The translations under genes were made by a program, and so were the position numbers. This document shows positions 1-27,859 of a stretch of 27,859 nt of DNA, piece after piece. This DNA is from a virus: IMG/VR virus record IMGVR_UViG_3300021475_000294, positions 1 to 27,859 of that record. One strand, given 5' to 3'. Each line of letters starts with the position of its first letter. Positions within the stretch are counted from its first letter, which is position 1. The notes below the pieces were generated by a model that was not told where the DNA came from, did no database searches, and worked only from the letters and a program-made list of their open reading frames with translations.

Positions 1-419
1 GGTGTCGCGCTCCACGGCACAACCAACAGGAGGTTCGTGATGAGTGGAGGCAACGGCGGCGGAGGCTGGTTGGGGTCGTAGGGAATGGCCCAGCTCATAT
101 CTACGGAGCCGGTCCCGGTTATCTGGTAGGCGTTGCACTGTACAACGTTGTTGTTGTCATCCATCACCGTCAGCGTATAGAACGTTCCGGCTGGAACTAT
201 CATGTCGTTGCCGTAGAGATTGGCTTCGAATCTGCCGTTGTCATCGACCGGAATCGGTTTCGTTGTAACTCTGGCCAGGAGCGATGTTCCCTGCACACGC
301 GGAATCTGGCTCCCGTATCCACACAGGGAAAACTTTACCGTCCCGTCCTCAAAAGTGTCCTGAAGCGTGGCTATATCCTGAAGGATTCCATAAACGAGGA
401 GAGGCGTCGGTGCGGCCAT
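1..419 (-). CDS. Tail fibre or receptor-binding-like protein, N-terminal part (cut by window edge)
   Basis: An open frame starts at ATG 419 and runs off the left end with no stop, giving about 139 residues. GAGG lies about nine bases before the start. The visible part looks like a beta-rich appendage domain: a segment around residues 25-45 (KFSLCGYGSQIPRVQGTS), then DDNGRFEANLYGNDMIVPAG, then a TFYTLTVMDDNNN strand, and then a proline hinge (NQPPPPLPP) near residue 127. Domains of this kind followed by a proline linker are common at the start of phage fibres and host-binding proteins, and the place after the lysis genes at the end of the structural block fits. The function is inferred from style and position, not from a recognised family. 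It could also be a structural decoration protein. Confidence 0.6.
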   Translation of the reverse strand, partial: MAAPTPLLVYGILQDIATLQDTFEDGTVKFSLCGYGSQIPRVQGTSLLARVTTKPIPVDDNGRFEANLYGNDMIVPAGTFYTLTVMDDNNNVVQCNAYQITGTGSVDMSWAIPYDPNQPPPPLPPLITNLLLVVPWSAT

Positions 420-430
420 GGCTTTTTACC

Positions 431-856
431 TCACGCAAAGAAATCAAACTGACCCACCTTCGCTATGCGCGGGTGGCTTTCAAGATCGCTCAACACGTTG
501 TCTTTGAACCACTGCCGGTTTACGTTGTGCAGCTCCGCGTAGTAGAGCGATTTATGTTCGTCGTTGTTCACGTCGCCATCATCTGCGATTCCGTAGTACA
601 CGTCATCGACGCCCAACAGAATTTTGCGAAACAGAACGTCGCGCGGATCGACTGCCGGCCGATTTTTCTGCACGGTCCCAACGTAGTCCGGCGCGGTCTC
701 GATGACTCTCTTCCAATCGCCTCCGTGCCATCCTGCATCCACGCGGTTCTTAAGCACCTGTGCAATCGCAAGCACCGTGCTCGCCGCGCCATCGTGATAC
801 GCCTCGTTTGCGGCGAAGTGGACGAGCCGGGCCTTGATGTAGTTCTCATACGTCAT
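431..856 (-). CDS. SleB-like cell-wall hydrolase
   Basis: 141 residues from ATG 856, whose ATGA overlaps the stop of the upstream muramidase gene. The pattern resembles the cell wall hydrolase SleB family (Hydrolase_2). An early acidic motif (HFAANEAYHDGAASTVLAIA, Glu18 as the candidate catalytic residue) is followed by VLKNRVDAG. A later LYYAELHN...W block leads to an ending with HPRIAKVGQFDFF that matches the family's usual C-terminal 'G.H.FY' theme. Such enzymes are lytic transglycosylases that cut peptidoglycan. Coupling to the endolysin gene implies lysis or virion-borne wall degradation. No signal peptide is seen. Family placement is from remembered motif layout only. Confidence 0.6.
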   Translation of the reverse strand: MTYENYIKARLVHFAANEAYHDGAASTVLAIAQVLKNRVDAGWHGGDWKRVIETAPDYVGTVQKNRPAVDPRDVLFRKILLGVDDVYYGIADDGDVNNDEHKSLYYAELHNVNRQWFKDNVLSDLESHPRIAKVGQFDFFA

Positions 857-1386
857 AGCTGCACCCGGTTCTTCATCCATCCAAAGATGAAACTCTCATT
901 CGCAACGCGACTCTCTGTGATGGCGAGATAGCGTTCGCCCTGGACGCAGTTGATTCCCTTCAGCAAAACCTCTTCGCCCTCCCTGCCTCGCGCCTTGATG
1001 AATTTGGCGAGTGCTTCGTGGGTGCGCGGTCCTATGATGCCGTCTATCGTCAGCTCCGGGTCTCTGCGATTGAATGCATTCAGCCAGCGTTGCAGCGTTC
1101 GCGCTCCAAACGCCGGTCCCATATTCACACCCATATCCGTCAGCTTCACGGCTATCGGCATGGAGATGACGGACAGTTGCGCGAATCTCGGCTTGTGCCA
1201 GTAGTCGGCCTTGAGGATGCGGACGGCTTCGTCGCGGGGAAGGTCGCGCATGTGGCCCTTGTAGCCATGTTCCCGCGCCACGCGCTCAGTGATGCCCCAG
1301 TTCGTCGGGCCTCCCCGGTCGTCGGGATGGTCAACATAGCCGCCTTCCTTGCCAAGTATTTCTTCGATGATGGAGTCGAGTGTCAT
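853..1386 (-). CDS. Endolysin, GH108-type N-acetylmuramidase with peptidoglycan-binding tail
   Basis: 177 residues, starting at ATG 1386 in an ATGA overlap with the lipoprotein gene. The N-terminus has the signature of the glycoside hydrolase 108 family: EGGYVDHPDDRGGPTNWGIT at residues 14-33. Glu14 is the expected catalytic acid for cutting the MurNAc-GlcNAc bond. The second half (about residues 85-160, GARTLQRWLNAFN ... IDGIIGPRTHEAL) matches the peptidoglycan-binding domain that usually follows this catalytic domain. The length is normal for the family. There is no signal peptide, so export should need a holin, and none lies directly beside it. The neighbours, a lipoprotein upstream and a second wall hydrolase downstream, form a lysis cassette. 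Confidence 0.92.
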   Translation of the reverse strand: MTLDSIIEEILGKEGGYVDHPDDRGGPTNWGITERVAREHGYKGHMRDLPRDEAVRILKADYWHKPRFAQLSVISMPIAVKLTDMGVNMGPAFGARTLQRWLNAFNRRDPELTIDGIIGPRTHEALAKFIKARGREGEEVLLKGINCVQGERYLAITESRVANESFIFGWMKNRVQL

Positions 1387-1634
1387 TTGTGTTTTGCCTT
1401 TGCGTCGAGTGCTCTCTGTTCGGCTACTGCTTCCTCACAAACCTGCAACGGGTCGATGCTGGCTCCCGGAGCCTTTACGCCGGGCTGCGCGAGTGCCGCA
1501 CACTGCACCTCCGGGGGCTGCGGTTTGCCTAAGCTCGATGCTGTGTGCGCGGACGATCCAACGTTCACCATCATGATGTCGTAGCATCCTGTGGTTGCAA
1601 GGCAGAGGAGTGCAACAAGGATTCGCGTCTTCAT
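1383..1634 (-). CDS. Small lipoprotein, possible outer-membrane spanin (Rz1-like)
   Basis: 83 residues from ATG 1634 (ATGA overlap with the upstream gene). The start is a classic export leader, MKTR followed by ILVALLCLATTGC, with a probable lipidated cysteine at residue 17. The box is slightly off consensus, with threonine at minus 3. The mature part contains a small proline-rich stretch (GKPQPPEVQ), two further cysteines and a charged helical tail. Position immediately before the endolysin and small size suggest an outer-membrane spanin subunit that disrupts the outer membrane at lysis. No inner-membrane partner is recognised next to it, so the spanin role is inference. A general phage lipoprotein is the alternative. 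Confidence 0.6.
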   Translation of the reverse strand: MKTRILVALLCLATTGCYDIMMVNVGSSAHTASSLGKPQPPEVQCAALAQPGVKAPGASIDPLQVCEEAVAEQRALDAKAKHK

Positions 1635-2365
1635 TGCGTCAGTCCCTTCCTGATGGCGCGGTGGCTCTGGAGATACTGGCGATAGAGTTCGCTGGCCGGG
1701 TTCAACACAACCGGGCCAAAGGCTCTATCCACTTCTTCTTCGGTGATGACATCTTTCAGAATCATTTGCAGCAAAGCTGTCCTCCAGCCACGCAATCTTT
1801 CGGTGGTGGGTACGTCCCACTCGTTGAAATTCATCACGCTCCACTCGGGTCCGCATGGATATTGCAGGGACGTAATCAGCTTCACGCGGCGGGTTTGCGT
1901 TTTGGTATCTTTCACCCATCCGAAGATCCCGATGCGTCCCTTTATGGCTTCGTCTCCTAACCAGATTCGTGCCACGTCGCGCGGCTTCTTCACCTGTACG
2001 GGCTTGCCTGTGATGTCGTCGGCCATCGTGACGTAGTACACAGGCGCTTCGATCCGCGCATCCACTCCGCCTCTCTGTAGTTTTCGCATCACATCATGCG
2101 GATGCATAATGTTGACGACGCGACGGGCGATGTTCTCCTCGCCCATCCATCGCTCCTGTCCTTTCCATCGGCTCTTGCGAACGGGGTCGGAGTTGTAGGC
2201 TTTCGCATACGCCTCGTCCACCAGGTCCTCCATCTCCGGTGTCGAGTCGCCGTCTTTGGGCAGAGAGTTGTAGTAATCAAGTTCCTCCGCAGATAGTGAC
2301 AGCTCCTCGTCATAACTGGTGGTGACGCGCTTGAAGTTCGAAAATATTTGTCCGGCTTCCGGCAT
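1631..2365 (-). CDS. Conserved-looking phage protein of unknown function (244 aa)
   Basis: Starts at ATG 2365, with AAGGAG about eight bases before it. The stop overlaps the lipoprotein start. The sequence is soluble and mixed alpha/beta. It has an acidic N-terminal third (SYDEELSLSAEELDYYNSLP), a central basic RRVVNIMHPHDVMRKLQRGG stretch, and a C-terminal helical part (ERLRGWRTALLQMILKDVIT) ending in LYRQYLQSHRA. Proteins with such a GWRT...L...G.LTEE tail are common in short-tailed phages, but I know no assigned role. Its place between ejection-type genes and the lysis cassette suggests a virion or assembly role. No catalytic motif is recognised. Confidence 0.75.
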   Translation of the reverse strand: MPEAGQIFSNFKRVTTSYDEELSLSAEELDYYNSLPKDGDSTPEMEDLVDEAYAKAYNSDPVRKSRWKGQERWMGEENIARRVVNIMHPHDVMRKLQRGGVDARIEAPVYYVTMADDITGKPVQVKKPRDVARIWLGDEAIKGRIGIFGWVKDTKTQTRRVKLITSLQYPCGPEWSVMNFNEWDVPTTERLRGWRTALLQMILKDVITEEEVDRAFGPVVLNPASELYRQYLQSHRAIRKGLTQ

Positions 2366-2369
2366 CGCG

Positions 2370-2702: not shown

Positions 2703-2866
2703 GCTCTTGCTACGTTCTGCGCAAAGATGGCTTTCTTCGCGGCTTTGCCGCCCTTCTTCTTCGCGGCTGCAATCTTCTTTTTCGTGGCTTTGCCGAAGCT
2801 TCCCAGCGTGCCTTTGCGCTTCATCTTCCTGACGGCTTTCTGAATCCATTTCTTTTTGGTCGCCAT
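2681..2866 (-). CDS. Very basic 61-aa protein, probable nucleic-acid-binding virion protein
   Basis: ATG 2866 overlaps the previous stop (TGATG), with AGGAGG six bases upstream. The product is dominated by lysine, arginine and alanine (KKKWIQKAVRKMKRKG, ATKKKIAAAKKKGGKAAKK, ARAARRRKR). It is probably helical and DNA-binding, like small basic proteins found among the internal or ejection genes of many short-tailed phages. I see no zinc, HU or other named domain. Its location directly after two ejection-type genes suggests it is packaged with, or helps condense, phage DNA. That role is inference. Confidence 0.75.
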   Translation of the reverse strand: MATKKKWIQKAVRKMKRKGTLGSFGKATKKKIAAAKKKGGKAAKKAIFAQNVARAARRRKR

Positions 2867-4560
2867 CACTGCCCTCCTGTCTGTGGCTGCGGTGCATTCG
2901 CCTGGTCGCGTTCCGTCTCGTGATTGATCGCTGCGGCCATCAGCGTAGCGGCGTAGCGCGTGGACACGTTGCCTTTGGCCGCATAGGTCGCCATCTTCAC
3001 AAGTCGGGGTTTGGTGGCCACATACTTCAACAGGTTTTCGGCGGTGGCGTTCGCGGCTCCCACGGCTGTACCTGCCGCGTAACCCATTCCCGCTGTCTTC
3101 GCCCATCCTGAAGGCAGGAACGTTCCCAACATGCCGGATGCCCATGAAGTCTTGGAGCCTGTCGCGTGAGCGCGTGTGGCTATCTCTTTCATCACATCTA
3201 CAAGCCGCTGATTCTGGACTGGATTCTTCGCGGTCTGCGCAAGGTCATAGAGTGAGTTCAATCCGTCCTGGCCCATAAGGTCCACCATGCGTTGATGGCC
3301 TATGCTGTTATCGCTCGTTAGGTTCTTCAGTTGTGTTTCGAGGTCTGCACCAGTGAAGGTGTTTGAGCTGCCACGCATCGCAGCGGCCTCGGGTGCGCCG
3401 AAGTCAAAAGCTTTGACAAGACCGTTATGAATCTTCTGCAACGTGAATTTGTCATGGAAGGCGTCCTGCGCCCGGTCGGTCGCTTCCTTCACGGCTTGCC
3501 CGTAGTTGGCATCATCAAAGCCGGTCGATAGCGAGTCGAGATTCGTTTGCGCCTCCGCTATCGCGTCTTTGTCTCCGCTGTCCTTGGCATCCTGTACGGC
3601 TTTGTTTGCGGCTCTCCATCTGCCATCGGTCACGCGGTCGGCTTCGTCATAGATGGAGCTGGCATTTTGCTCTAGCTGTTTAGCTGCCTGTCCATAGTCC
3701 GCGACTGGCGTGGCTACTCGGTTCCCACCCATACGGTCCAGTGCGCGTTGCAGGGTGCTGGTGGCTCCGCTTGCAAAGGTCTCCGGCGCAGCTTCGCTGG
3801 CGGCTTTCTGACTCAGGATTTTGGAGACTGCCTCGCTTGCCGCCTGTCCAGCTTCGCGGACTAATCCGGCTCCTCCTCCTAACACTGCGCCCGTCACGCC
3901 TCCTGCCACGGCTCCGGTCGCGGTTGCTTTCGGATCGCCTCCGCTTTCGACGGCTGATAGGGTCGCGTTTGGCACGGCTGCTTCTGTGGCTCCCGTCGCC
4001 GTATCCACGCCGATGCGTTTAAGCATGTTGAGTAGGCCGGGATTTTTTTCCAGCGTCTTGATATTTCTGCCGATGGCTGCGATTCGATCACCAACGGACA
4101 TGCCTGCGGTGGCTCCCTCTTCTCCCCATAGTTCAGGGGATGCAAGCGCGAGCATGTCTACCCCGAATCCTCCGGCCTGTTCCTGCGGAGTTGTCGGCGT
4201 TGAGCTGTCTCGCAAGTGGGACGCCAGGGCCTGCACTTCGGGTACGAGTGCCGTGTTTCTCGCCGGGTCTGTCGTGAGACCTGGAACGATGGGCGAATTT
4301 GCCAGGTCCATCAATCCCGCCGCAAGCGTTTTCACTTTTTTCCATGCGCCTTCGGCTACGCTTCCCGGTGGGCCTGCCGATAAAGTTGACTGCGCCACGG
4401 TCGGCGTCGGCGGTGGTGTCGGGGATGGCTGTTGCGCTGACGCGACCGGCGCGACTGTTCCGCCATAGGCCGCATATGGGTCTGCGGCTGCTGTTGGCGG
4501 CGTCTGGGCTGCTACCTGTCCGCCATAGGCTGCATACGGGTCTGTTGCTGGGTCGGCCAT
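2866..4560 (-). CDS. Internal virion / ejection-type protein (564 aa)
   Basis: The start at ATG 4560 lies in a TGATG overlap with the upstream gene. The N-terminus carries two copies of DPYAAYGG (residues about 7-14 and 27-34) separated by alanine/threonine/proline-rich linker. A large Ala/Gly-rich helical body follows, with a glycine-rich stretch (AVAGGVTGAVLGGGAGLVRE) that could be membrane-interacting. The central region (about residues 300-360) has charged coiled-coil character, and the C-terminus has a small hydrophobic AGMGYAAGTAVGAAN segment. Length, composition and place after another Ala-rich large protein match ejection (internal virion) proteins that form a channel for DNA entry. 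No enzymatic domain is visible. The role is inferred from composition and context. Confidence 0.7.
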   Translation of the reverse strand: MADPATDPYAAYGGQVAAQTPPTAAADPYAAYGGTVAPVASAQQPSPTPPPTPTVAQSTLSAGPPGSVAEGAWKKVKTLAAGLMDLANSPIVPGLTTDPARNTALVPEVQALASHLRDSSTPTTPQEQAGGFGVDMLALASPELWGEEGATAGMSVGDRIAAIGRNIKTLEKNPGLLNMLKRIGVDTATGATEAAVPNATLSAVESGGDPKATATGAVAGGVTGAVLGGGAGLVREAGQAASEAVSKILSQKAASEAAPETFASGATSTLQRALDRMGGNRVATPVADYGQAAKQLEQNASSIYDEADRVTDGRWRAANKAVQDAKDSGDKDAIAEAQTNLDSLSTGFDDANYGQAVKEATDRAQDAFHDKFTLQKIHNGLVKAFDFGAPEAAAMRGSSNTFTGADLETQLKNLTSDNSIGHQRMVDLMGQDGLNSLYDLAQTAKNPVQNQRLVDVMKEIATRAHATGSKTSWASGMLGTFLPSGWAKTAGMGYAAGTAVGAANATAENLLKYVATKPRLVKMATYAAKGNVSTRYAATLMAAAINHETERDQANAPQPQTGGQ

Positions 4561-6563
4561 CAAAATACCTTCGCGTTAGGATTCTCGTGCTGAAATTTTG
4601 CTAGTGCAGAACGCGGTATGTGTCCCGGTTGCTGGCCCGGAATCTGAACGGTTACAAGATCATTTGCGGATGGTGCTGCCGGAGCTGCTGGCGCGGCTGC
4701 TGGCGCGGCTCCGCCTCCCGGCGCTGGTGTGGGTGTCGCTCCCAGCAGACTTTCCAAAGCGGAGTTGGGTGAGACTGCACCTCGCGGCATTGCGGAAGCC
4801 CATTGTGTCTGATAGCTGGCGAGCTTGCCGTTCAGCAGTCTGCGAAACTCTCCGATGCTTCCGCGCAATGCGCCGGGTGAATCGCTTTCATTGATGAGTC
4901 CCTGCATTTGATCGTGTTCGCCCAGGCTGATTGCGCCTCCCTTGTATGCCTTGGCTACTTCATCGCTCACGGCGCTACGCGCCGATTCAAAGGCGCGAAG
5001 GTCTGGATTGGTGGCGCGGGTGGCCGTGTTCTTCGCCCAATTGATCGCGGAGCCTATGAGCGGGACCGTAACGTTATCGGGAATCGTCCTCTCCAGCTCG
5101 TCAAGGTGATTCCGTGCCGTGCCGATGAAGTTGAGTCCCACGCCTCCGGCTCCTGATGTCATAAACTGCCGCATCTTCTGGTAGGTGGGGTACTGCGTGG
5201 AGTCGTAATCGGGGTAGACCTGATTGACCATACCCATGATGCGCTGGCCTTCCTTGGTGAAGCGGCTGGGCGGTGCCTGGCGTCCTTCGCCGATGGCTTT
5301 TACGGTCGCGGCGTCTCCGGTCGGCAATGCTGCCAGCGCGTCCGGTCCTGTCGCTCCGCCTGTTGAAACTGCTCCTCCCGCTGCTGGTGCGCGTCCGGCT
5401 GCTTTCAACGCCAGTTCGTTCTTCTGGATCGCGGCGGCGGAGTCGAGGAGAGCCTGTTTCTTAACCGGATCGGTCTCCTGTCCGGCTGCGATGAGCGCGG
5501 CTTGTGCGGTGGTCGGCGTCTTCTCCGTCTCTGGCTTGTGGTTTTTGTCCCACGCATTTTTCATGTCGAAATACTGCGCAATGGTGGCTTGCTGGGCTAA
5601 CCGGATCGCGCCTTTTTTCTGTGACTGCGGGGCGATGTCGTCGGACCCCAGGGCGGGTGCGCCCGTTTTCGGGTCCACTTCGATCTTGAAAGCCTGTTCC
5701 ACCTTGTCGTTTTTGCGGTTGTCGTCTCCCTGGTCCACCAGAAAGGCGTGGAGCTGTACGGTTCCTTTCGCATCCGCCGTGGGAATGATCTTGAGGGCTT
5801 GATTGGTGTGGCCCTGAAGTATGGCGGGATTGTCCTGGACTGCCTTCATGATGCTGGGCATGTCGGTAAACGATCCAAGGTCGGTTGTGTTCGGACTGTT
5901 TTGAATGGAGTCAGCCGCGCTTTGCAACAGACTCGCTTCCTGTGTTCCCAGCGTCAGTCCTGCTTCGCGGTTGGCCAGTCCGGCTCCGACAATTTTCTGG
6001 TGGACGAGAGCGTTGTTGGCATCGGCGAGCTGCTGCGCACTCATGTTCGCGGCTTCTGCGTTCGCCTGGGCAAGCTGCTGCTGGGGAATGTTCTGCCCTG
6101 TCTGGAAGCCTGTCGCTAACGCTCTGGCGGAGCCGCCCGGTCCCTGTCCTGCGGCGTAGCCTTTGGCGGCTCCCCCCAGCACGGCGGACGCGATGCGTCC
6201 CCACTTCTCTCCGCTCGTCGCCGGATCGTGGGTGACGGTCACGTTTCCGGTCTGCGCATCGCGGGTGACATGGACGCTGGTATCTCCGGCGAGAATGTCG
6301 GTCGCTTTATCCATGATGTTCGCAAGCCAGTTGTGATGAGCTGCGGCCATGCGAATCTCGGGGTCCTGGTAGGCGTCCATCGGCTGCTGCTGGACCATGG
6401 CGGTTGCGGGGTCGGCTCCCGGCTGCACGCCGGACGGCGGGGGAGAGTTCACATTGACCGTCTGGCCGGAGTCCTGCACGGGAATTGTCGCCGTCGCCTC
6501 GGGGTTCTGAGCAAGATCAACGGGGGTGTTTTGAACGCCTAGAATATCGGCTGCGGTGGCCAT
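4560..6563 (-). CDS. Internal virion / ejection-type protein (667 aa)
   Basis: ATG 6563 follows AAGGGAG at a good distance, ten bases after the previous stop. The N-terminal 70 residues are disordered and Pro/Gln-rich. A glycine-rich segment near residues 125-150 (RIASAVLGGAAKGYAAGQGP) and long Ala/Gln-rich helices (QLAQANAEAANMSAQQLADA) follow. The second half is helical and charged, with low-complexity Ala/Pro linkers near the end (PAPGGGAAPAAAPAAPAAPS). This resembles large ejection proteins of podoviruses, which are packaged in the capsid and released into the envelope before DNA. The last about 35 residues (VQIPGQQPGHIPRSALAKFQ) look like a small separate terminal domain. No lytic transglycosylase motif is apparent. 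Confidence 0.7.
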   Translation of the reverse strand: MATAADILGVQNTPVDLAQNPEATATIPVQDSGQTVNVNSPPPSGVQPGADPATAMVQQQPMDAYQDPEIRMAAAHHNWLANIMDKATDILAGDTSVHVTRDAQTGNVTVTHDPATSGEKWGRIASAVLGGAAKGYAAGQGPGGSARALATGFQTGQNIPQQQLAQANAEAANMSAQQLADANNALVHQKIVGAGLANREAGLTLGTQEASLLQSAADSIQNSPNTTDLGSFTDMPSIMKAVQDNPAILQGHTNQALKIIPTADAKGTVQLHAFLVDQGDDNRKNDKVEQAFKIEVDPKTGAPALGSDDIAPQSQKKGAIRLAQQATIAQYFDMKNAWDKNHKPETEKTPTTAQAALIAAGQETDPVKKQALLDSAAAIQKNELALKAAGRAPAAGGAVSTGGATGPDALAALPTGDAATVKAIGEGRQAPPSRFTKEGQRIMGMVNQVYPDYDSTQYPTYQKMRQFMTSGAGGVGLNFIGTARNHLDELERTIPDNVTVPLIGSAINWAKNTATRATNPDLRAFESARSAVSDEVAKAYKGGAISLGEHDQMQGLINESDSPGALRGSIGEFRRLLNGKLASYQTQWASAMPRGAVSPNSALESLLGATPTPAPGGGAAPAAAPAAPAAPSANDLVTVQIPGQQPGHIPRSALAKFQHENPNAKVF

Positions 6564-7202: not shown

Positions 7203-7709
7203 TTATCCTTCCTTATGCGATGGCTGTGGGTAGCGTCCCCAATCAGTCGTGTGGCGTCCGATGGGGTTTATTGGCCCTATCTCTCGTAGAAGCTCCATCG
7301 GACTCTCCCTGAAGCCAAGCCGCCGTTTGGCAAAAGCGGTCAGTTCGGGTCCGGCTGTGTCAAAAATGATCTGGCGGAAGCTGTTTTGCCGGAGCATCGC
7401 TTCAATCCACGCAAAACCCTTCAGCAAAGCCAGCCGGTTACGGTGCTTTTCCTCCCTGGTCTCGCTGGACGCAAACTGCACGCTCAGTCTGACCGCGACC
7501 TGGGTCTTGAAATAGAGAAGGACGTTGCCGTGTTCGTCTTCCAAAGCCCATGCGTCCTCACCCGGCATCAGCTTCAGAAAGTAATCGGGGGTCATCCGGC
7601 CCTTGTGGTAGGCGTCTTCCTCTATAAGGTTGTCGAGATAGGCGCGGTCGGCTTCGCTCATGGGTCTTACTACATAGTCGTCAAAGTGGAATTGGGGCTG
7701 AGTGCTCAT
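7203..7709 (-). CDS. GNAT-fold-like protein (possible N-acetyltransferase), 168 aa
   Basis: ATG 7709 overlaps the upstream stop (ATGA). The layout resembles GNAT proteins. An N-terminal VVRPMSEADRAYLDNLI block is followed by a strand pair (DAWALEDEHGNVLLYFKTQ), a second strand (VAVRLSVQFA), a long helix (LALLKGFAWIEAMLRQNSF) and the strand/helix RQIIFDTAGPELTAFAKRRL. The end, GFRESPMELLREI, is typical of the family's last strand. The acetyl-CoA pyrophosphate loop (Q/RxxGxG/A) is not clear, so it may be a structural, non-catalytic relative. Such proteins recur in structural operons of short-tailed phages. The substrate is unknown. Confidence 0.5.
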   Translation of the reverse strand: MSTQPQFHFDDYVVRPMSEADRAYLDNLIEEDAYHKGRMTPDYFLKLMPGEDAWALEDEHGNVLLYFKTQVAVRLSVQFASSETREEKHRNRLALLKGFAWIEAMLRQNSFRQIIFDTAGPELTAFAKRRLGFRESPMELLREIGPINPIGRHTTDWGRYPQPSHKEG

Positions 7710-7966
7710 GAATTGCCTCCATGCTGCATGGGAACGGTGCGGAACTGCGGGATGCTCCAGTTGCCATAGAACTGTGTGAGAGCGTCGTTGGTTGAGGCCA
7801 TCAGGGGCATCGAAGCCAGCATGAAAGGACTCATGTTCGGATAGCCTCCGTTGGCTGGCGGTTCGGCCTTCGGATCGGGGCTTTCGAGGGTCGAATCCGC
7901 TGCCTTCGGCGGGGCTGGTTGCCAGCCTGTCGTGTTCACGTTCTGGGACTGCTTTACGCTGGGCAT
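7706..7966 (-). CDS. Small Pro-rich protein of unknown function (86 aa)
   Basis: ATG 7966 follows immediately after the TAA of the nozzle gene. AGGAG inside that gene's end is the ribosome site, seven bases upstream. The N-terminal half is disordered (QPAPPKAADSTLESPDPKAE) and the second half has a short hydrophobic helix (PFMLASMPLMAS). Between the tail nozzle and the ejection genes, it is probably a minor virion or assembly protein. No family is recognised. Confidence 0.65.
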   Translation of the reverse strand: MPSVKQSQNVNTTGWQPAPPKAADSTLESPDPKAEPPANGGYPNMSPFMLASMPLMASTNDALTQFYGNWSIPQFRTVPMQHGGNS

Positions 7967-12201: not shown

Positions 12202-12213
12202 GTCCCACCTCCG

Positions 12214-12813: not shown

Positions 12814-12866
12814 GGTGGTCTCACTTTCTGTTGTTGCTTCGGGTGAGGTAGTGCGTGGATGTGGTT

Positions 12867-15429: not shown

Positions 15430-15441
15430 GGGTTTTCTCCT

Positions 15442-16774: not shown

Positions 16775-18906
16775 TGTCCACCTCCAGATGGTCCGAAGAA
16801 TTGACTGGTGTTAATCGCGTGCGTGTCAGCGGTTCTCTCGGCAAAGCTGGCCGCTCGGTCAAGCGGCGATTCGACTAAGGTTTTGTGGGTGGTGTCGATG
16901 CTTTTTGCGGCGATGCGTCCGGCAATTTTCTTGTCTTCCAGTTGCATCTGGAAATTCTGGTTTTGCTGCTGCTCTGCGGCCTTCGATTGCGCTGCGATCA
17001 CGGCGGGATTCTGCGCGGCCATCATCTGCTGTTCCTGCGGTGTCATCTGCACGATGAGGTCGTTCTGGTTCTTCCACTCGCTCATGTCGAGCACCATCTT
17101 TACCAGCTCCAGCGCGTTCACCTTCCATCCTGTCTGGCCTAGCTGTTGGACGAGTGCCTGATTGCCCAGCACTTCCAGAAGGAAGGGAAGCGCCTGTGCC
17201 ATGCGGTTCCGCGCGGCGAGTCGCGTTCCGGCCAGCGTGTCAAACCTCACGTCCGCATCCATGAAGTCCTGAAAGTCCACCACTAAATCAGGTGCGCGGT
17301 CGCCAAGGATCGCGCGAATGTCCGATATGGGCATCCGTTCCTTCACCATCTGCCAGAGGAACGATAGATAGGGAAGAAAAACCCCGTCGATGAATCGCTC
17401 GACGGGGCTTTGAAGCCGTCCGGCTGACGCCGCACCAATCATCCCGGCTCCTGTGCCGGAGCGTCCGATGCTGGAGCCGCGACCGGGAAGGGAACCCTGT
17501 ACGCTGGCCTGGTCGGCTCCGGTCGCGCCCTCTGAGGTCGCTATGGATGCCTGGATCGCTCTCCACGCATCGGCGGGAACCTGCGGCTGGGGGACTAGCG
17601 CGATGGCGCGGCTGGCGTCTCCCCCTGGCCCGGTCTCGACAAGGCGGATGCCCCCCAGTCTTCGCCGCTGGTCCTGAGTCGGAACATTGGCTCCCCGCGC
17701 AATGCTGTACTCGGGATTTACGGCGAACGCCAGGATGTCGAGAATTGCGTTAATCATGCCCTGCTCTACGCGCTGGTCGGCTCCGGCGATCCGGCCTATG
17801 CCCATCCCATATCCGGCGTTGTCGATGTCCCAATAGTTCGCGCTGAAAAAGGGCTTGTGCGGCATCTTGTGTTTCGCGTTGCGGATGACGCATTTCTTTT
17901 GCAGCACCGTGCGCACATCGGTGTCGCTCCACCACTCCAGGACTTCCATCGGCCTCAACAGGGGGTCTTCAGAAAAGTCGAAGTCCTCGCGCTCGGCATG
18001 GTGGACGCTGGTGTTGGCCGTCAACGCTTCTTCTACTCCGGTGATGCCCTCGGTCTGCTCGGGATGATCGGGGCTGAACATTGACCGCAGGACGTCATCG
18101 GATGGGATGTCGTAGTCGGGATTGTCGCGGAGCTTGGTGAGGTCGTCATAGTTGAGATACATGCGACGGACGATGAAGCTGGCTTTCCAGAGCTGGTTGG
18201 GTTTGTTCCACGTCGGATCGGGGAAGACGGTTCCGAGTTCGCACTTTTCGAAGATGGGAAGGTTCTTCGTCACCTCTACATCGACCGCCTCAAACTCATC
18301 CGATTCCTTTGTGAAAACCGTCATCGGCTGCCCTAGTGGAAGGTTCACCTGGGGCGGAGCCTGTTTGCGCTGGTAGTGGCTCTCGACGCGGGTCTTTGTC
18401 TCCCAGCCACCCATGAAGATCACGGTCCCCTGATTGACTTCGCCCTGAATCCCATAGCTGGCCTCCTGCTTGAAATTAATCTGCTCCAGCAGCTCCGCAA
18501 TGGTCTCCTTCCATGCTCGGGCCGTGTCCTGCTTGGTGTTGGGCCGGGGCCGAATCTCGAACGGTGTGGCATCAGAAAAAATCGCTCCCGAGATTGCGGG
18601 AGCGATGGAGTTGGTTTGCTTTGCGACTGTGAACCTTGAGACGTTCGCTCGGGTGACGCTGGAGCCTTCAAAGACGCTTAGGCTGCGCGGCGATTGGTAG
18701 AGGATGTCGGTCTCAGTCCACATCAGCGGCCAGCGGCGATCATTCAGCCACGTTGACGCGCGTTCGAAGTCCTGAACAACGATAGATAAAACCGCTTCAT
18801 CGGTGTATTTCGGGTCTATGGCTGGGTCGTTCGAAGTCTTCACGTCCCCCATGCGGACGGGTGCGCTCCAAACGCTATCGGCAACTAAAACAGCGGTAGC
18901 AGCCAT
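16771..18906 (-). CDS. Portal protein (711 aa)
   Basis: ATG 18906 has TGAGGA upstream. The size, the position between terL and scaffold/capsid, and the sequence style fit podovirus portals. It has an N-terminal helical region with WLNDRRWPLMWTETDILYQS, a central stem with GYGMGIGRIAGADQRVEQGM and INAILDILAFAVNPEYSIAR, and a Gly/Ser-rich loop (GSLPGRGSSIGRSGTGAG) followed by VERFIDGVFLPYLSFLWQMV. The C-terminus is a Gln/Ala-rich helix (QNPAVIAAQSKAAEQQQNQN) expected for a barrel or tail region. The protein forms the ring through which DNA is packaged and to which the tail attaches. There is no frame disruption. Confidence 0.85.
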   Translation of the reverse strand: MAATAVLVADSVWSAPVRMGDVKTSNDPAIDPKYTDEAVLSIVVQDFERASTWLNDRRWPLMWTETDILYQSPRSLSVFEGSSVTRANVSRFTVAKQTNSIAPAISGAIFSDATPFEIRPRPNTKQDTARAWKETIAELLEQINFKQEASYGIQGEVNQGTVIFMGGWETKTRVESHYQRKQAPPQVNLPLGQPMTVFTKESDEFEAVDVEVTKNLPIFEKCELGTVFPDPTWNKPNQLWKASFIVRRMYLNYDDLTKLRDNPDYDIPSDDVLRSMFSPDHPEQTEGITGVEEALTANTSVHHAEREDFDFSEDPLLRPMEVLEWWSDTDVRTVLQKKCVIRNAKHKMPHKPFFSANYWDIDNAGYGMGIGRIAGADQRVEQGMINAILDILAFAVNPEYSIARGANVPTQDQRRRLGGIRLVETGPGGDASRAIALVPQPQVPADAWRAIQASIATSEGATGADQASVQGSLPGRGSSIGRSGTGAGMIGAASAGRLQSPVERFIDGVFLPYLSFLWQMVKERMPISDIRAILGDRAPDLVVDFQDFMDADVRFDTLAGTRLAARNRMAQALPFLLEVLGNQALVQQLGQTGWKVNALELVKMVLDMSEWKNQNDLIVQMTPQEQQMMAAQNPAVIAAQSKAAEQQQNQNFQMQLEDKKIAGRIAAKSIDTTHKTLVESPLDRAASFAERTADTHAINTSQFFGPSGGGQ

Positions 18907-19551: not shown

Positions 19552-21282
19552 TCACTCCAGTCCCGGTATAGTCATTTCGAGACCCTGCGCGGTAAGCTCC
19601 TGGTCCTCCAGGCGCGGTTCCACATAAGCCTCTTCCTCCGGCTCCGGCTCGACGGGCGCATAGGCTCCTTTGCCATAGAGCATGTTGTAGCGGTCGCGTT
19701 CGCGCATCATCTCCCATGCTCTGTCGTCGTCGCGATCCTCGGCGGCGATGGACTGCGGCAGATTCCCCGCGACCTGGGCGACGACATCGGGCAACCCGGT
19801 TTCTTCGATCATGCTGTACTGCACAAAGCCCTGAATCAAAGCCTTCAGTTTCGCGATGCCGTTGGAAAAGACAATCCGTGATGCTGCGATGTCGGCCTCG
19901 ATGTTGCGGATTCGGGTGTCGCGGTCTCCGGCATCCTCGATAAACGGCGTCCACTTCACGCGAATATCCCAGCCGGTTGTGAGCGCGTAGTTGGCGATGG
20001 GCGATTGCATCAGCCGCGCTCCCGGCGACTCTTCGATGCTGATGTCGTGCATACCGTACTTCCGCGCGGTGTCGTGAATCAGCTTCGCCAGCACAGACGG
20101 CTTGTAATGGCCCTGCAAGGCGTCGGTGAAGTGCATCCGGTTGCGGTGCAGGATACCAACGGCGGCAGAGGCTGTCTGCCACTTCAGGCTCCGGCACGGC
20201 AGACGCCAGTGGATGAAGGTCTGGCCCTCCATCGGCATCTTGTTTTCATCGATCATCGCGGCCAGCATCTGCGGTTCGCTGAACACAATCTCCGCCGCGC
20301 CGTAGCTGTCGAGCATGTACTGGCTCATGAAGCTGGAGTATTCGGCCTCGTACTCTTCCTTGAGAAATTCGTAGCTGAGGATCGACGGAAACAACAGCTC
20401 TACATCGTCCTCGTCGGGAAAGCCGTTCGGGTCCAGCCTTTCGCCGCTCCTGAGTCTCATGGCTGGCTTGTAGATGCGGCGGTAGGTTCCCGGCTTCGAT
20501 GTCAGCACCTCGTCTGCGAAGATGTCTCCGGCTCCGTATGGCGTTCCAATCTTCAGCTCGATTCCGGTAGGCTTCAGAATCTTGCGCGTCAGTTTGTAGT
20601 CCTTGGTGATGCGGGTCCGCGCGGCGAAGCTGCGCGAGTTGCGGTTGTTGTGAACGTCGTCATAGATCGCAACGTCGGGATGCCAGCCTGTCGTTGCGGA
20701 GCCGATGGAGTTGCCCCATATCAGCGGCTCGATAATCTTCGGCTCGTACTGACGCAATGCGGCTGTAAATTCTCCTGAGTCCGGTTCCTTCTCCACGCAC
20801 AGCTCGGGGTAGAGCGCCTGAAACAACGTTGGCGGTCGGCGCGGTGCGCGATAGAAGAAGCTTGATATTTGATCGACAAACGCAAACGCCAGCTCTTTCG
20901 ATCCGCTGATAATCAGGATCGCAATGGTCATGTAGTAAATCAGAATGAGCTGGATGCAGTTGGCCAGGTCGAGCGTCGATTTGTAGGTGTTGCGGGGAAG
21001 CAGAAGGGAGCCGCGCCGTTCGATGTCGATGGATAGCTCCTCGACGGTTTTATTGCGGTCGATCTTGGGAAAGAAGTTGATGGCGTCGTGATGGACGTCT
21101 TCGGTGATGAGGCAGTAGCCAAGGACGTAGCAGAGCGCGAGTAGGTTGGTCTCGCACAGGCGGCGTCCGTCCTCCTTCAGCTCGTCGTCTGACTGCACCA
21201 ACAGGGTAAGCTCCGCTCTCCATGCTTTGTTGTCGCCCTTCTCCTGCGACGGATCGCGTAACTTGCGCCAGTTGAAATGCAT
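19552..21282 (-). CDS. terL: Terminase large subunit (DNA-packaging ATPase/nuclease), 576 aa
   Basis: ATG 21282 lies three bases after the previous stop. The ATPase part shows a degenerate Walker A loop at residues 93-103 (LLLPRNTYKST), Walker B around 203-209 (DVAIYDD), and a coupling-type motif near 245-250 (IGTPYG). The nuclease part follows: the first strand and helix at about 355-376 (TFIHWRLPCRSLKWQTASAA), motif II at 416-419 (IEES, Glu417/418) and motif III at 497-501 (LPDVV, Asp499). At the place where RNase-H-type terminase nucleases have the first catalytic Asp, this protein has Trp-Arg. It pumps DNA into the procapsid through the portal. The C-terminal tail is acidic (PVEPEPEEEAYVEPRLEDQE). 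No small terminase is recognised beside it. Confidence 0.88.
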   Translation of the reverse strand: MHFNWRKLRDPSQEKGDNKAWRAELTLLVQSDDELKEDGRRLCETNLLALCYVLGYCLITEDVHHDAINFFPKIDRNKTVEELSIDIERRGSLLLPRNTYKSTLDLANCIQLILIYYMTIAILIISGSKELAFAFVDQISSFFYRAPRRPPTLFQALYPELCVEKEPDSGEFTAALRQYEPKIIEPLIWGNSIGSATTGWHPDVAIYDDVHNNRNSRSFAARTRITKDYKLTRKILKPTGIELKIGTPYGAGDIFADEVLTSKPGTYRRIYKPAMRLRSGERLDPNGFPDEDDVELLFPSILSYEFLKEEYEAEYSSFMSQYMLDSYGAAEIVFSEPQMLAAMIDENKMPMEGQTFIHWRLPCRSLKWQTASAAVGILHRNRMHFTDALQGHYKPSVLAKLIHDTARKYGMHDISIEESPGARLMQSPIANYALTTGWDIRVKWTPFIEDAGDRDTRIRNIEADIAASRIVFSNGIAKLKALIQGFVQYSMIEETGLPDVVAQVAGNLPQSIAAEDRDDDRAWEMMRERDRYNMLYGKGAYAPVEPEPEEEAYVEPRLEDQELTAQGLEMTIPGLE

Positions 21283-24382: not shown

Positions 24383-24713
24383 CGTTCTCCTCTGCTTTAA
24401 ACTCCTCTATCGTCTTGCACTCATCACCGGGATTCGCCGCTTCAATATCCTGCTTCGTCAGTAGGCGATTCCAGAATTTCCGGTCGGGTATCTTGTCGGC
24501 TGGAAGTGGCCCCACGACCATAACTGCTCCACCTGGGCTGTAGCCGCGCCGATTGCTAAGATAGGTAGCCTCGGCAGGTCCGTGAGCCTGAAGGTAGACT
24601 CCACCTCGAAATCCATAGTCGTCCGCGTAGGACAGATACCACACGCTCAACGGATTGTTGCGCTCCTCCGCGAGAAGCTTATTTAGCCGCTTCCTGAATT
24701 CCTGTTGGTTCAC
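24366..24713 (-). CDS. Conserved-type phage protein of unknown function (115 aa)
   Basis: Start at GTG 24713, with GGAGG four bases upstream and a GTGA overlap with the rusA stop. It contains WYLSYADDYGFRGGVYLQAH and RRGYSPGGAVMVVGPLP, then a helical RNRLLTKQDIEA-like end. I recall similar 'YLSFADxxGFxGG...NPGGEV' patterns in phage proteins of unknown role. The location directly after a recombination enzyme may mean a DNA-metabolism role. No active site is identified. Confidence 0.65.
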   Translation of the reverse strand: MNQQEFRKRLNKLLAEERNNPLSVWYLSYADDYGFRGGVYLQAHGPAEATYLSNRRGYSPGGAVMVVGPLPADKIPDRKFWNRLLTKQDIEAANPGDECKTIEEFKAEENDGTKR

Positions 24714-25144
24714 TCGGCCTCCAGTCGGGTTACAAAAAACTCGGTGCGCGGATTCTGTCGGCAATTGCGGTCAATCGTCAACGAACATTCAATAACCTTC
24801 GCATCGCTATGGATCACTCCCGCCGCTTGCAGCGCATCGACGGCTACTTTTGCGGAGTTGTCGCAGTCCAGCCGCGCCTTTGGTCCCAGGACGACATGAA
24901 CGCCTATCCTGTAGCGCACCTGGTCGCGTTCCTTCTTCGTTGCCGGAGCCACGGTGCGGCCTCGGGCGAAGATGGCGACGGCATCCTTGAAAGCCTTCGC
25001 CTCCGGCGTCACCTTGAACCCGCGATGCGCGTAGCCGTCTTTGCCGGTGTATATGGTGGGCTTCTTGTAGTGATTCCCACTCGGCGGCGTGAGGTAGGGA
25101 ACCGTGAAAGCCACCTCGTTCTCGATTTCGATTGCGTTATTCAT
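24710..25144 (-). CDS. rusA: RusA-family Holliday junction resolvase (144 aa)
   Basis: The start is taken as ATG 25144, because a minus 10 box sits just before the alternative ATG at 25156. The motif set fits RusA. An N-terminal PSGNHYKKP segment (about 21-29) is followed by DCDNSAKVAVDAL at 93-105 (Asp93, Asp95, Asn96, Lys99) and IHSDAKVI (Asp114). The three aspartates are the expected metal-binding catalytic residues. The enzyme cleaves four-way DNA junctions that arise in phage replication and packaging. The gene faces the repA operon with a very short gap. Confidence 0.87.
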   Translation of the reverse strand: MNNAIEIENEVAFTVPYLTPPSGNHYKKPTIYTGKDGYAHRGFKVTPEAKAFKDAVAIFARGRTVAPATKKERDQVRYRIGVHVVLGPKARLDCDNSAKVAVDALQAAGVIHSDAKVIECSLTIDRNCRQNPRTEFFVTRLEAE

Positions 25145-25156
25145 ATTTGTAGTCAT

Positions 25157-25183
25157 ATTATATTCACATGCCAAAACAAGCAA
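25157..25183 (-). promoter_or_regulatory. Candidate promoter for the minus-strand operon
   Basis: On the minus strand TATAAT (25157-25162) is a perfect minus 10 box, with TTGCTT (25178-25183) as a minus 35 at a 15-base spacing, slightly short. Transcription would start near 25150, about six bases before ATG 25144, which predicts an almost leaderless message for rusA. The box also lies in the start region of the plus-strand operon. Confidence 0.5.
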
Positions 25184-25395
25184 CACGAATTACACGTCGC
25201 GGCGGTCGTAAAGTAACCCTGAAAAGAACGGGGTATATAACCACCAGTCTCCGGCTCCAGGCGGAAGAAAACCGGGAGCTACGAAGGTTCGCCAAGAAAG
25301 TCGGTCTGTCGTTCAACGGCTGGGGCGTTCAAACTCTACTCAACGAAGCACGAAAGGGAAAAAATACTAATGGCAAAGCCTACACCGAAGAGTAA
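25168..25395 (+). CDS. Ribbon-helix-helix-like regulator at the head of the rep operon (75 aa)
   Basis: ATG 25168 has no clear ribosome site, so it may be poorly or leaderlessly initiated. Residues about 21-29 (TGYITTSLR) look like the DNA-contacting strand of a ribbon-helix-helix protein. They are followed by two helices (AEENRELRRFAKKVGL and NGWGVQTLLNEARK). The N-terminus is very basic. Small Arc/CopG-type proteins of this kind often repress the operon that includes the plasmid initiator, so a copy-control role for the downstream repA is a fair inference. A toxin-antitoxin antitoxin is less likely because no toxin gene follows. Confidence 0.6.
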   Translation: MPKQATRITRRGGRKVTLKRTGYITTSLRLQAEENRELRRFAKKVGLSFNGWGVQTLLNEARKGKNTNGKAYTEE

Positions 25396-25561
25396 CAATC
25401 AACCCACCACTGGATTCGCTCTGCCTCAACCCATCACAGACCCACGCAACGAACTGTTCTACCTGCTTGGCTATCTCCGTGGCCGCGATGCTGACACTGC
25501 GGTTCGCATCGCGGAGCTGGTCATCGAACTTCTGCCGCAACCGCAGCCGGAGGTCGAATAG
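25370..25561 (+). CDS. Small unknown protein (63 aa)
   Basis: ATG 25370 follows AAAGGG at a loose distance and overlaps the end of the regulator gene. The N-terminal half is disordered (KSNNQPTTGFALPQP) and the second half is a helix pair (NELFYLLGYLRGRDADTAVR, IAELVIELLP). It is the second gene of the rep operon. No function is recognised. Confidence 0.65.
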   Translation: MAKPTPKSNNQPTTGFALPQPITDPRNELFYLLGYLRGRDADTAVRIAELVIELLPQPQPEVE

Positions 25562-25866
25562 TGGCGACGGTCATTTACCACACCAACGGAATCATGGAAT
25601 CTGTCACCCCTGCCAACGGTGTCAACTGGTCGCTGAAGGAGTTGCAGACGATGGTGGGCGGCTACATTCAAATCTGCGAGACCAACGATGGCCGCTACAT
25701 GGTCATAAACGAACACGGAAAAGTCACGAGACCCAGTTTGCCTTTGAATATCATGGCGACTCGGATATACCTGTTCGGTGAGTACGATCCGATTGTTGGC
25801 CCTGCGGTCGTTGTAGACAATCGTCTGGAGCTGGACGGCCCGCAGGATGGAAAAGAGGAGGCTTGA
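25561..25866 (+). CDS. DUF3846-family-like protein (101 aa)
   Basis: GTG 25561 overlaps the previous stop by one base. The order of motifs, with WSLKELQTMVGGYIQICETN, then GRYMVINEHGKV, then a SLPLNIMATRIYLFG loop and DPIVGPAVVVDN, matches the DUF3846 family: a small domain with 'LQ..VGG.I', 'NE.GK', 'N..AT' and 'IVG.AVV'. Members are common on plasmids and phages and have no proven role. The place inside an operon that ends in repA fits an accessory plasmid role. Confidence 0.72.
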   Translation: MATVIYHTNGIMESVTPANGVNWSLKELQTMVGGYIQICETNDGRYMVINEHGKVTRPSLPLNIMATRIYLFGEYDPIVGPAVVVDNRLELDGPQDGKEEA

Positions 25867-25868
25867 GC

Positions 25869-26183
25869 ATGAAGCCGATGAGGATGTCGCAAAACCCGCT
25901 GCGGATCGTGGAGAGTGCCTGTCCTAAATGTTTTCACAGGCTCGATGCGGTCGATTCGGTCGGTGAGGGTGGGGAGTGTATCCCACCTTTACCGGGTGAT
26001 TTCACCATCTGCATCGCCTGTTTTTCTGTTCTTCGCTTCGATGACAATATGCATCTCCTCTTAAGCTCTTTGAGTGAGGTTCCTATCGAGCATCGCGCAC
26101 TTTTGGCTTATATCAAAATGACTGTCGAAGAGGCTGCGCAAGCGTGGAACGCGAAGGGGGGAAGGCCGTGGGCCAGCCACTAG
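25869..26183 (+). CDS. Zinc-ribbon protein of the rep operon (104 aa)
   Basis: Start is chosen at ATG 25869 because AGGAGG lies seven bases upstream. A TTG at 25863 is possible. It shows ESACPKCFHRLDAV and PGDFTICIACFSVLRF, two CxxC pairs about 35 residues apart. The rest is helical (SLSEVPIEHRALLAYIKMTV) and ends in AWNAKGGRPW. It is the fourth plus-strand gene before repA. The function is unknown and the zinc ribbon is inferred. Confidence 0.7.
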   Translation: MKPMRMSQNPLRIVESACPKCFHRLDAVDSVGEGGECIPPLPGDFTICIACFSVLRFDDNMHLLLSSLSEVPIEHRALLAYIKMTVEEAAQAWNAKGGRPWASH

Positions 26184-26461
26184 GCGGCAACTATGGAGCC
26201 ATCGCCTTCCGCGATCTGGGCGACGGTCGCGCCGTCTGGATTTACCCGATGCTCTACACCTTCAAAATCGCTATCGGCCCGGTAGATTCGCCGGGCTATA
26301 GCGATCACTGGTGTTACAAAGACCTTGAATCTGTCGTGTCCGCTTTCGCGCTCTGGGAGCCATCCACGGAGCCGGAGCCGGGCGGATGGGTTCGACATCC
26401 ACCAACAGGACGCCGCCGCTTTCCTGACGGCGATCCGGCAACTGAAGAAGTGAGGGATTGA
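26168..26461 (+). CDS. Conserved phage/plasmid-type protein of unknown function (97 aa)
   Basis: The start is placed at GTG 26168, with a G-rich GGGGGGAAGG just upstream. A longer frame from GTG 26144 is possible. It begins with GNYGAIAFRDLGDGRAVWIY, then YTFKIAIG, then a WCYKDLESVVSAFALWE helix, and ends with GGWVRHPPTGRRRFPDGDP. This RHPxTGRRRxxDGDP ending is a pattern I recall from many phage and plasmid proteins with no known role. It ends just before repA. Confidence 0.7.
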   Translation: MGQPLGGNYGAIAFRDLGDGRAVWIYPMLYTFKIAIGPVDSPGYSDHWCYKDLESVVSAFALWEPSTEPEPGGWVRHPPTGRRRFPDGDPATEEVRD

Positions 26462-27409
26462 ATGTCAATTTTCGATGAGCCAGCGTTAATACCAATCGGC
26501 ACGGTTGGAGAGCGTTATTGGAACACGGTTGCGACGATAGGCGAACCTACGGTCGATGAGATTCGCTACATGCATGTCATCTTTGCGCAGACTGGATTTC
26601 CCTATAGCGAAGTCCCTTTTGGACAGCCATTCCAGCGGAGAAATGGAAGTGCTGTCCTTGGTCTCACCCCTGGGTATTTGATGAACCCCGTGACGCGGCG
26701 GCTGGAGCTTCAGGGTTTGCCTTACGGCTCGATTCCACGTCTGCTGATGATCCACATTTGTAACGAAGCGAAGCGAACCAGTAAGCGAAAGATTGACATG
26801 AATCGAAGCATGACAAAGTTCCTGCGGGACGATCTTTTGGTTAGTCCTTCAGGTGGCGTGAGAGGGGGTTTGACTGCGTTCAAAAAACAGATGAATCGGG
26901 TTGCGGCCACGCCTATGACCATCGGCTTAAACTACCTCACTGGCCGGGGCGGTCGCGGAGCTGCGACGTTCAAGCCTACTCCTGCGATTGTCGAGTACAA
27001 AGTCTGGGACGAAGACAGCCTCGTTGACAAGCCGATGTGGCATACCGAGGTAACACTTTCCGAGTCTTTTTTCGAGGGGGTTCTTTACCATTCAGTCCCG
27101 CTCGATGACCGGGCGATTCAGGCTTTGCGGAAGTCTCCCCTTCAGCTCGACGTTTATTTCAACCTCGCTCAACGGCTTCCAAGGATGCGCGGAAATGAGG
27201 TTCAAAGGATCTCCTGGGCGAAATTGAGAGAGCAGGTTGGACAGGAGTATGGAGAAGTGAAGACATTTAGATTCAATTATTTACGCGCACTTGAAAAAGT
27301 AAAGGGCGTTTATCCTGACGCAAATATCACCTATACCGCTGATGGTATTGAACTTAGGCGGTCAAAACCACCAATTCCGTCAAACCTGCTTTTGCCGTTC
27401 GGGGATTAG
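26462..27409 (+). CDS. repA: Plasmid replication initiator, RepA family (315 aa)
   Basis: ATG 26462 directly follows the previous stop, with GAGG about seven bases upstream. The sequence matches the plasmid-encoded RepA family: PYGSIPRLLMIHICNEAKRT, SVPLDDRAIQALRKSPLQLD, then VYFNLAQRLPRM, SWAKLREQVGQEYGEVKTFR and FNYLRALEKVKGVYPDANIT. These fit two winged-helix regions that bind iterons at the origin and melt DNA. The length is typical. The iterons and DnaA-box-like sites immediately after the gene support the role. This is strong evidence for plasmid-style replication of the element. Confidence 0.87.
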   Translation: MSIFDEPALIPIGTVGERYWNTVATIGEPTVDEIRYMHVIFAQTGFPYSEVPFGQPFQRRNGSAVLGLTPGYLMNPVTRRLELQGLPYGSIPRLLMIHICNEAKRTSKRKIDMNRSMTKFLRDDLLVSPSGGVRGGLTAFKKQMNRVAATPMTIGLNYLTGRGGRGAATFKPTPAIVEYKVWDEDSLVDKPMWHTEVTLSESFFEGVLYHSVPLDDRAIQALRKSPLQLDVYFNLAQRLPRMRGNEVQRISWAKLREQVGQEYGEVKTFRFNYLRALEKVKGVYPDANITYTADGIELRRSKPPIPSNLLLPFGD

Positions 27410-27411
27410 GG

Positions 27412-27435
27412 TTTTCCACAGAAAGGTGTGGAAAA
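27412..27435. repeat. Inverted DnaA-box-like pair
   Basis: TTTTCCACA at 27412-27420 and its reverse complement TGTGGAAAA at 27427-27435 differ from the canonical TTATCCACA box by one base. The six-base gap makes a perfect nine-base inverted repeat. They start three bases after the repA stop. They may bind host DnaA or form a hairpin at the end of repA. Confidence 0.75.
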
Positions 27436-27441: not shown

Positions 27442-27466
27442 GTTTTCCACGCTGAATCACTAACCG
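27442..27466 (+). repeat. Iteron 1 of the repA origin
   Basis: An exact 25-base repeat (27442-27466 and 27488-27512, 46 bases apart). The core CACGCTGAATCACTAACCG is 27448-27466. The unit contains TTTTCCAC at its left end, as in the DnaA-like sites. Iteron-type origins are recognised by RepA. Confidence 0.85.
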
Positions 27467-27487: not shown

Positions 27488-27512
27488 GTTTTCCACGCTG
27501 AATCACTAACCG
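27488..27512 (+). repeat. Iteron 2 of the repA origin
   Basis: Exact copy of iteron 1 over 25 bases. Its core at 27494-27512 is 22 bases before iteron 3, about two turns of the helix, as is usual for iterons bound on one DNA face. Confidence 0.85.
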
Positions 27513-27515
27513 ATT

Positions 27516-27534
27516 CACGCTGAAACGCTAACCG
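27516..27534 (+). repeat. Iteron 3 (degenerate) of the repA origin
   Basis: CACGCTGAAACGCTAACCG differs from the core of iterons 1 and 2 by two bases and lacks the TTTTCCAC left part. It is 22 bases after iteron 2. The next bases (CTATATGGAAG) are somewhat AT-rich. Confidence 0.8.
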
Positions 27535-27545
27535 CTATATGGAAG

Positions 27546-27582
27546 CCTGTATTTAACCTGTATGTGAGTAAATACCCTGTAT
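27546..27582 (+). repeat. Three CCTGTAT repeats
   Basis: CCTGTAT at 27546-27552, 27557-27563 and 27576-27582, the first two 11 bases apart. They lie in the AT-richer part after the iterons. They may be another protein-binding set or part of the melting region. The role is not known. Confidence 0.6.
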
Positions 27583-27633
27583 CAGGGGCGGCGGGGATGT
27601 GCAAAAACCCTGCGGCGACATGGAGGGCATCGC

Positions 27634-27859
27634 ATGAAAGACCGAATCGGCAACAAGTTGGCGGCTGGCGACCGGGTTCTGGTGTCACTGCCGGAGTCCG
27701 CCATCATGGGCTTCGTGGCGGAAGTGAAAGAAACGGGACTGGTGGCGCGAGTGCGCGGCGGCGGAGCGGACACGGCTCCAGGTCACGTTTTGGTCTCGTG
27801 CGTGATCGCGTTTCCCGTTGACAGCCTCATGGACGCGGTTGCGCAGGTTGTGAAGGTTT
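27634..27859 (+). CDS. Unknown protein with SH3-like start (cut by window edge)
   Basis: ATG 27634 has GGAGG seven bases upstream. Seventy-five codons are open to the right end with no stop. The N-terminal part (KLAAGDRVLVSLPES, AIMGFVAEVKETGLVARV) looks like a small SH3/KOW-type beta barrel. A likely continuation follows in GGGADTAPGHVLVSCVIAFP. The gene lies after the origin and may belong to a second plus-strand operon. Function unknown. Confidence 0.6.
   Translation, partial: MKDRIGNKLAAGDRVLVSLPESAIMGFVAEVKETGLVARVRGGGADTAPGHVLVSCVIAFPVDSLMDAVAQVVKV

Follow-up and report, generated by a model that had tools for sequence, protein, structure and literature searches.

When a phage genome contains plasmid replication genes, these are often taken as evidence of a phage-plasmid, and replicons made of a RepA_C initiator and iterons are a plasmid hallmark (905 plasmids). 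The rep gene of Salmonella genomic island 1 (SGI1) also encodes a RepA_C protein, and the oriV just downstream holds four 17-bp iterons, a DnaA box, and an A+T-rich region with three repeats; replication is lost when either rep or oriV is deleted, and variants of SGI1 carry a different initiator in place of RepA_C (PMC7433901). Here, we report a RepA_C gene and adjoining iteron origin in a virus fragment of 27.9 kb (IMG/VR virus record IMGVR_UViG_3300021475_000294, 27,859 bases, classed as linear; hereafter, the window) that also carries virion genes. The window comes from a family of soil viruses that infect bacteria and is probably part of a linear, short-tail-type phage of ~42 kb. Replication of this phage would start near the right genome end, at a RepA_C/iteron origin derived from plasmids, and would serve lytic growth, with repA and its iterons forming an exchangeable unit. 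The whole analysis is based on sequence comparison of metagenomic contigs.

The replicon comprises the following features:

26462-27409 (+), repA, RepA_C replication initiator of 315 amino acids (Pfam PF04796, E=1.3e-20, 74.8 bits against a cut-off of 26)
27412-27420 (+) and 27427-27435 (-), inverted pair of DnaA-like boxes, one on each strand, TTTTCCACA
27448-27466 (+), iteron 1, CACGCTGAATCACTAACCG (0 expected by shuffling)
27494-27512 (+), iteron 2, identical to iteron 1 and 46 bp from it, start to start
27516-27534 (+), iteron 3, with two differences, 22 bp from iteron 2
27546-27582 (+), CCTGTAT in three direct copies within A+T-rich sequence, a candidate duplex-unwinding element (DUE), read from the sequence

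A RepA model was generated with AlphaFold2 (mean pLDDT, 74) and compared by fold with the PDB, where the top 20 matches were all iteron initiators (RctB, Rep-iteron-DUE complexes, RepE54, and pi), with modest query TM-scores (0.38-0.48). A PDB sequence search with the RepA alignment returned nothing useful, and the fold comparison alone was informative. The iteron CACGCTGAAWCNCTAACCG matched at the three positions listed, against 0.00 matches expected (100 shuffles). Two DnaA-like boxes were found where 0.21 were expected, a count reached by 2 of 100 shuffles and by itself only suggestive; similar boxes lie among the iterons of most relatives that carry RepA, and related triple motifs stand in for the CCTGTAT repeats. 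Every genome with RepA (12/12) had 3 to 5 copies of a genome-specific iteron of ~18 to 20 bp, with DnaA-like boxes nearby (the window counted with three copies, one degenerate, detected at 3 mismatches). These iterons usually start CACGCATAA or CACGCTGAA and in most cases are spaced 45 to 46 and then 22 to 23 bp apart. Iterons adjoined the initiator gene in 12/12 genomes with RepA versus 0/23 with other initiators (p ~1e-9, or 8e-8 with near copies collapsed by hand, which was the sole correction for relatedness). In one relative (IMGVR_UViG_3300036803_000057, positions 40815-41828), repA lies on the opposite strand, the iterons and A+T-rich part stay in place, and the iteron, AGGGATGGAGTGGGGGCGC, has lost the usual core.

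This layout resembles that of SGI1 in the RepA_C initiator, the origin directly downstream, the replacement of RepA_C by an unrelated initiator in related elements, and, as far as the sequence suggests, the DnaA box and the A+T-rich region with three short repeats. Iterons are ~17 to 20 bp in both, numbering four in SGI1 and three to five in the phages, and the core CGCATAAT is found in the SGI1 consensus read in reverse and in many phage relatives, the window having the variant CACGCTGAA. SGI1, however, lacks virion genes, being an integrative island that depends on a helper, whereas the cassette described here sits in a self-packaging phage. IncN-type and pXAC64-type plasmids encode initiators of the same Pfam family (34 to 37% identity; 37% for the window RepA and that of Xanthomonas pXAC64), and several of those examined have iterons flanking repA; they differ in carrying transfer or maintenance genes, and the phage RepAs group separately. 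Iterons with a similar core were seen at several plasmid and Acidobacteriota RepA_C loci. The mycobacteriophage RepA/parABS prophages likewise have a RepA-type initiator in a tailed phage but differ in their parABS, stable lysogeny, and lack of detected repeats adjoining repA (PMC7157519); none was matched by our RepA queries in INPHARED.

The first three relatives found shared terL-portal-repA synteny with the window. One (3300050821_006521) had the same junction and was 99.95% identical to the window across 14.3 kb; a 42.2-kb contig (3300020034_000039) had the same junction and a RepA 92% identical; and a 15-kb contig shared stretches of ~85% identical DNA, with a RepA only ~32% identical. 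Further relatives were gathered by scanning with a portal alignment and with a DUF932 gene of the 42-kb contig, giving 76 portal-bearing loci. In all, 13 virus records originating from several metagenomes showed the RepA-virion arrangement; their RepAs and iterons had diverged yet were collinear. The claim of a first-pass annotation that a replicon of RepA, iterons, and DnaA boxes is physically joined to virion genes was thus borne out by Pfam, fold, iterons, and recurrence.

Gene order was conserved, and an initiator-like gene always lay between the following two features:

25168-26461 (+), five small genes running rightward into repA, the first three conserved (11 to 13 of 14 genomes)
27634-27859 (+), small conserved gene next to the right genome end, truncated at the window boundary (cluster 21, 12/14 genomes)

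This slot was typed in 35 genomes: 12 held RepA_C, 21 helix-turn-helix initiators, and 2 a phrog_9474 type, with representatives of the phage types matching PHROG replication-initiation families. On the portal tree, the RepA label requires at least two to three changes, and the RepAs form three groups scattered over it. Two sister pairs each hold two different RepA groups: the window and G003 (portals 92% identical, RepA 31%) and the 42.2-kb contig (G002) and G007 (portals 92%, RepA 24%). Conversely, the window and G002 have portals 82% identical and RepAs 92% identical, and RepA identity was unrelated to portal identity overall (rho 0.03). Such similar portals with RepAs only 24 to 31% identical argue that the cassette was exchanged. 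Similarity between the window and G003 is lost at ~25.85-27.63 kb, spanning repA and iterons, and the gene at 27634-27859 is one border of the exchanged cassette. Across ten genomes, iteron similarity tracked RepA (rho 0.30, p 0.04) but did not track the portal (rho -0.03), which indicates, on sequence grounds, that repA and iterons move together, as a cassette that can be exchanged within one fixed slot near the right genome end.

The 12 phage RepAs formed one group (support 80/81) in a tree that also included 23 sequences from Acidobacteriota and 11 from plasmids; this is compatible with, though not proof of, one capture followed by shuffling within the phage lineage. RepA_C was found in 17/396 Acidobacteriota genomes. 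Among named phages, three tblastn queries against 50,697 INPHARED records gave no genuine RepA_C record, and there was no PHROG match. The only phage record with RepA_C, OR850969.1 ("Salmonella phage S.Kent 1-2-1"), is an unverified fragment of 3.9 kb; it has both RepA_C and iterons and is probably plasmid contamination.

The role of RepA and the iterons is most likely lytic replication. Sister phages hold ordinary phage-type initiators in the same slot, and the cassette therefore fits a lytic-cycle initiator. The first-pass annotation held that its phage-plasmid reading would fall if RepA-like proteins of this branch were standard lytic-phage initiators, and the comparison comes close to this. 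If this origin works as those of SGI1 and iteron plasmids do, RepA would bind the three iterons and host DnaA the inverted boxes, the A+T-rich repeats would melt, and host DnaB helicase and replisome would load; theta-type replication of the phage with host enzymes would then reach high copy during lytic growth. The phage may contribute its RusA resolvase and, in relatives, also a clamp-loader-like AAA+ protein and an SbcC-like ATPase. A rule by which a plasmid replicon denotes a phage-plasmid would misclassify this lineage, which has no recognized partition or lysogeny genes and a replaceable initiator. Near-identical phages with different RepA/iteron pairs offer a natural experiment on initiator-iteron codivergence, and the lineage is useful for asking whether such pairs determine incompatibility or superinfection exclusion, as well as how plasmids and phages come to share initiator modules.

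Several points weigh against lytic use of an exchangeable origin: the left third of the genome is absent from the window, the iteron-RepA correlation is weak and drawn from 10 genomes, the single origin of the phage RepAs is moderately supported, CI-like HTH_3 proteins occur in 3/32 relatives, a ribbon-helix-helix protein occurs in 8 genomes (cluster 35), and a repressor or partition function could hide among the many small proteins without a family. An alternative, put forward in the first-pass annotation, is a true phage-plasmid; RepA and iterons would then keep a low-copy extrachromosomal prophage with partition or immunity genes too divergent to recognize. The results do not support this reading and we consider it unlikely, although a plasmid phase via unrecognized maintenance genes is possible. 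The plasmid character of RepA_C/iteron replicons favors it, as does the use of a RepA-like protein with parABS by the extrachromosomal mycobacteriophage prophages (PMC7157519). Among 32 relatives tested, nine of which carry RepA_C, neither ParA (PF13614) nor an integrase above cut-off was found (0/32 each); none of the three HTH_3 proteins was in a RepA carrier. Two weak integrase matches (G051 and G056) fell below cut-off at the expected portal position and were rejected. A Pfam scan of 71 noncore proteins revealed no maintenance genes. Scanning with the RepA alignment yielded six viral contigs that have RepA_C but belong outside the lineage, and these served as a positive control. In five (L235, L237, L239, L242, and L244), ParA was near RepA; the tests would therefore have detected ordinary partition genes. 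TerL and portal had no match in PLSDB (72,556 plasmids), databases in which Acidobacteriota plasmids are few, and among 396 Acidobacteriota genomes, the portal was found only in the already known metagenome-assembled genome (MAG) on which the sample was centered. None of 25 contigs compared was circular or permuted; all were collinear and linear, with the same ends in those that reach them. The replacement of the initiator by phage-type proteins also speaks against a plasmid prophage.

One of the control contigs, L244 (IMGVR_UViG_3300025291_000012, locus 7497-18617), encodes RepA_C beside ParA and ParB, and the contig also has the tail genes Baseplate_J and Mu Gp48. It is a separate, better phage-plasmid candidate, and the presence of such a RepA_C candidate in IMG/VR counts in favor of the phage-plasmid alternative.

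Contigs that reach the genome ends stop at the same places, on the left 37 to 57 nucleotides (nt) before a C-rich block and on the right shortly past the initiator region. Seven ends carried exact fold-back inverted repeats (arms of 16 to 69 nt, loops of 4 to 33 nt). All seven were among the ~25 natural termini, and none of the ~98 remaining contig ends had one (p=7e-6; we ourselves sorted the ends into these two classes). The 14-nt left-end loops GTTGAGATTACCTA and GTCGATATTACCTA, from two different metagenomes, are alike. This distribution points to true linear ends, and the fold-backs are possibly hairpin telomeres formed without a known protelomerase; snap-back at true DNA ends in library preparation could also produce them. 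One reading, which we regard as doubtful, is a linear genome with hairpin ends, unpaired conserved loops, and the RepA/iteron origin near one end, in which the core RusA-like resolvase would cut head-to-head junctions in a poxvirus-like manner with no protelomerase. Slightly less probable still is a linear phage-plasmid with closed hairpin ends, an N15-like outcome reached via another enzyme. The restriction of fold-backs to natural termini and their similar loops would suit it, but protelomerase of the TelN/ResT type (PF16684) was absent from the relatives (0/32), the loops are unlike the near-perfect palindromes expected from a protelomerase, and library snap-back could yield identical reads. 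Fold-back ends were seen in G002, G010, G035, G050, and G063 (3300020034_000039, 3300036846_000518, 3300046376_000136, 3300036845_000448, and 3300036845_000436), and the left loop of 14 nt, GTYGAKATTACCTA, is conserved between two metagenomes. A pattern scan for further left-end fold-backs recovered two known contigs and two unrelated hairpins only.

A chimeric repA join had been considered in the first-pass annotation. Misassembly, or contaminating plasmid sequence fused to a phage contig, is suggested by the metagenomic source and by the sole INPHARED RepA_C record resembling plasmid scrap, and is refuted by the same junction recurring, diverged but collinear, in the 13 records.

The host is tentatively Acidobacteriota, hinted at by the one Acidobacteria MAG and by similarity to the closest named phage, Tunturiibacter phage Tunturi_3 (PP885686; portal 36%, TerL 26%). 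Tunturi_3 is short tailed and infects an Acidobacteriota host (PMC11924767); it differs in its size (97.6 kb) and in that RepA_C was not detected.

On the minus strand, the window encodes endolysin, large virion proteins, capsid, SU10-type portal, TerL, and RusA, while the small genes, repA, the origin, and the conserved small gene occupy the plus strand between 25.2 kb and the window end. The minus-strand features were as follows:

853-1386 (-), endolysin (GH108 and PG_binding_3)
2866-6563 (-), two large virion-like proteins (conserved, clusters 15 and 16, 12 genomes)
7967-10507 (-), large virion protein (weak matches to internal-virion/decoration PHROGs: phrog_511, E=5e-8; phrog_20658, E=4e-7)
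13420-14580 (-), major capsid protein (phrog_1357, E=4e-12; TIGR04387 below cut-off)
16771-18906 (-), portal, SU10 type (SU10_portal PF23899, E=8e-20)
19552-21282 (-), terminase large subunit (TerL) (phrog_38, E=2e-29)
24710-25186 (-), RusA-like Holliday-junction resolvase (PF05866, E=2.6e-6; phrog_34, E=2e-11; 14/14 genomes)

The virion set named earlier was matched for terL, portal, capsid, and endolysin; the proteins at 2866-6563, called ejection proteins, gave no match in a family search, and that role is a guess. A capsid gene was likewise confirmed by phrog_1357, while its assignment to the N4-gp56 type was not, with only 22 bits against TIGR04387 (cut-off, 60). Nor was the giant virion RNA polymerase of N4-like phages (Schitoviridae) found: the longest open reading frame in the window has 847 amino acids, and the longest core and accessory proteins of relatives have ~1,000 and 1,334. 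The minus-strand open reading frames at 7203-8078 and 7967-10507 overlap by 112 bp, and in the shorter, the upstream portion before ~7710 is probably not translated.

Relatives of 40 to 45 kb show the full layout, and their left part, missing from the window, encodes the clamp-loader-like AAA+ protein, DUF932, the SbcC-like ATPase, and, in one relative, endonuclease VII. A batch Pfam scan that included a left-end accessory protein of G004 (L043:995-1882) returned ArdC N-terminal and zincin metallopeptidase domains, which probably belong to that protein. The SbcC-like ATPase (phrog_1499; L009:8004-9398 and homologues), for which no nuclease partner was recognized, was present in 11/11 genomes covering its position and may bear on end protection.

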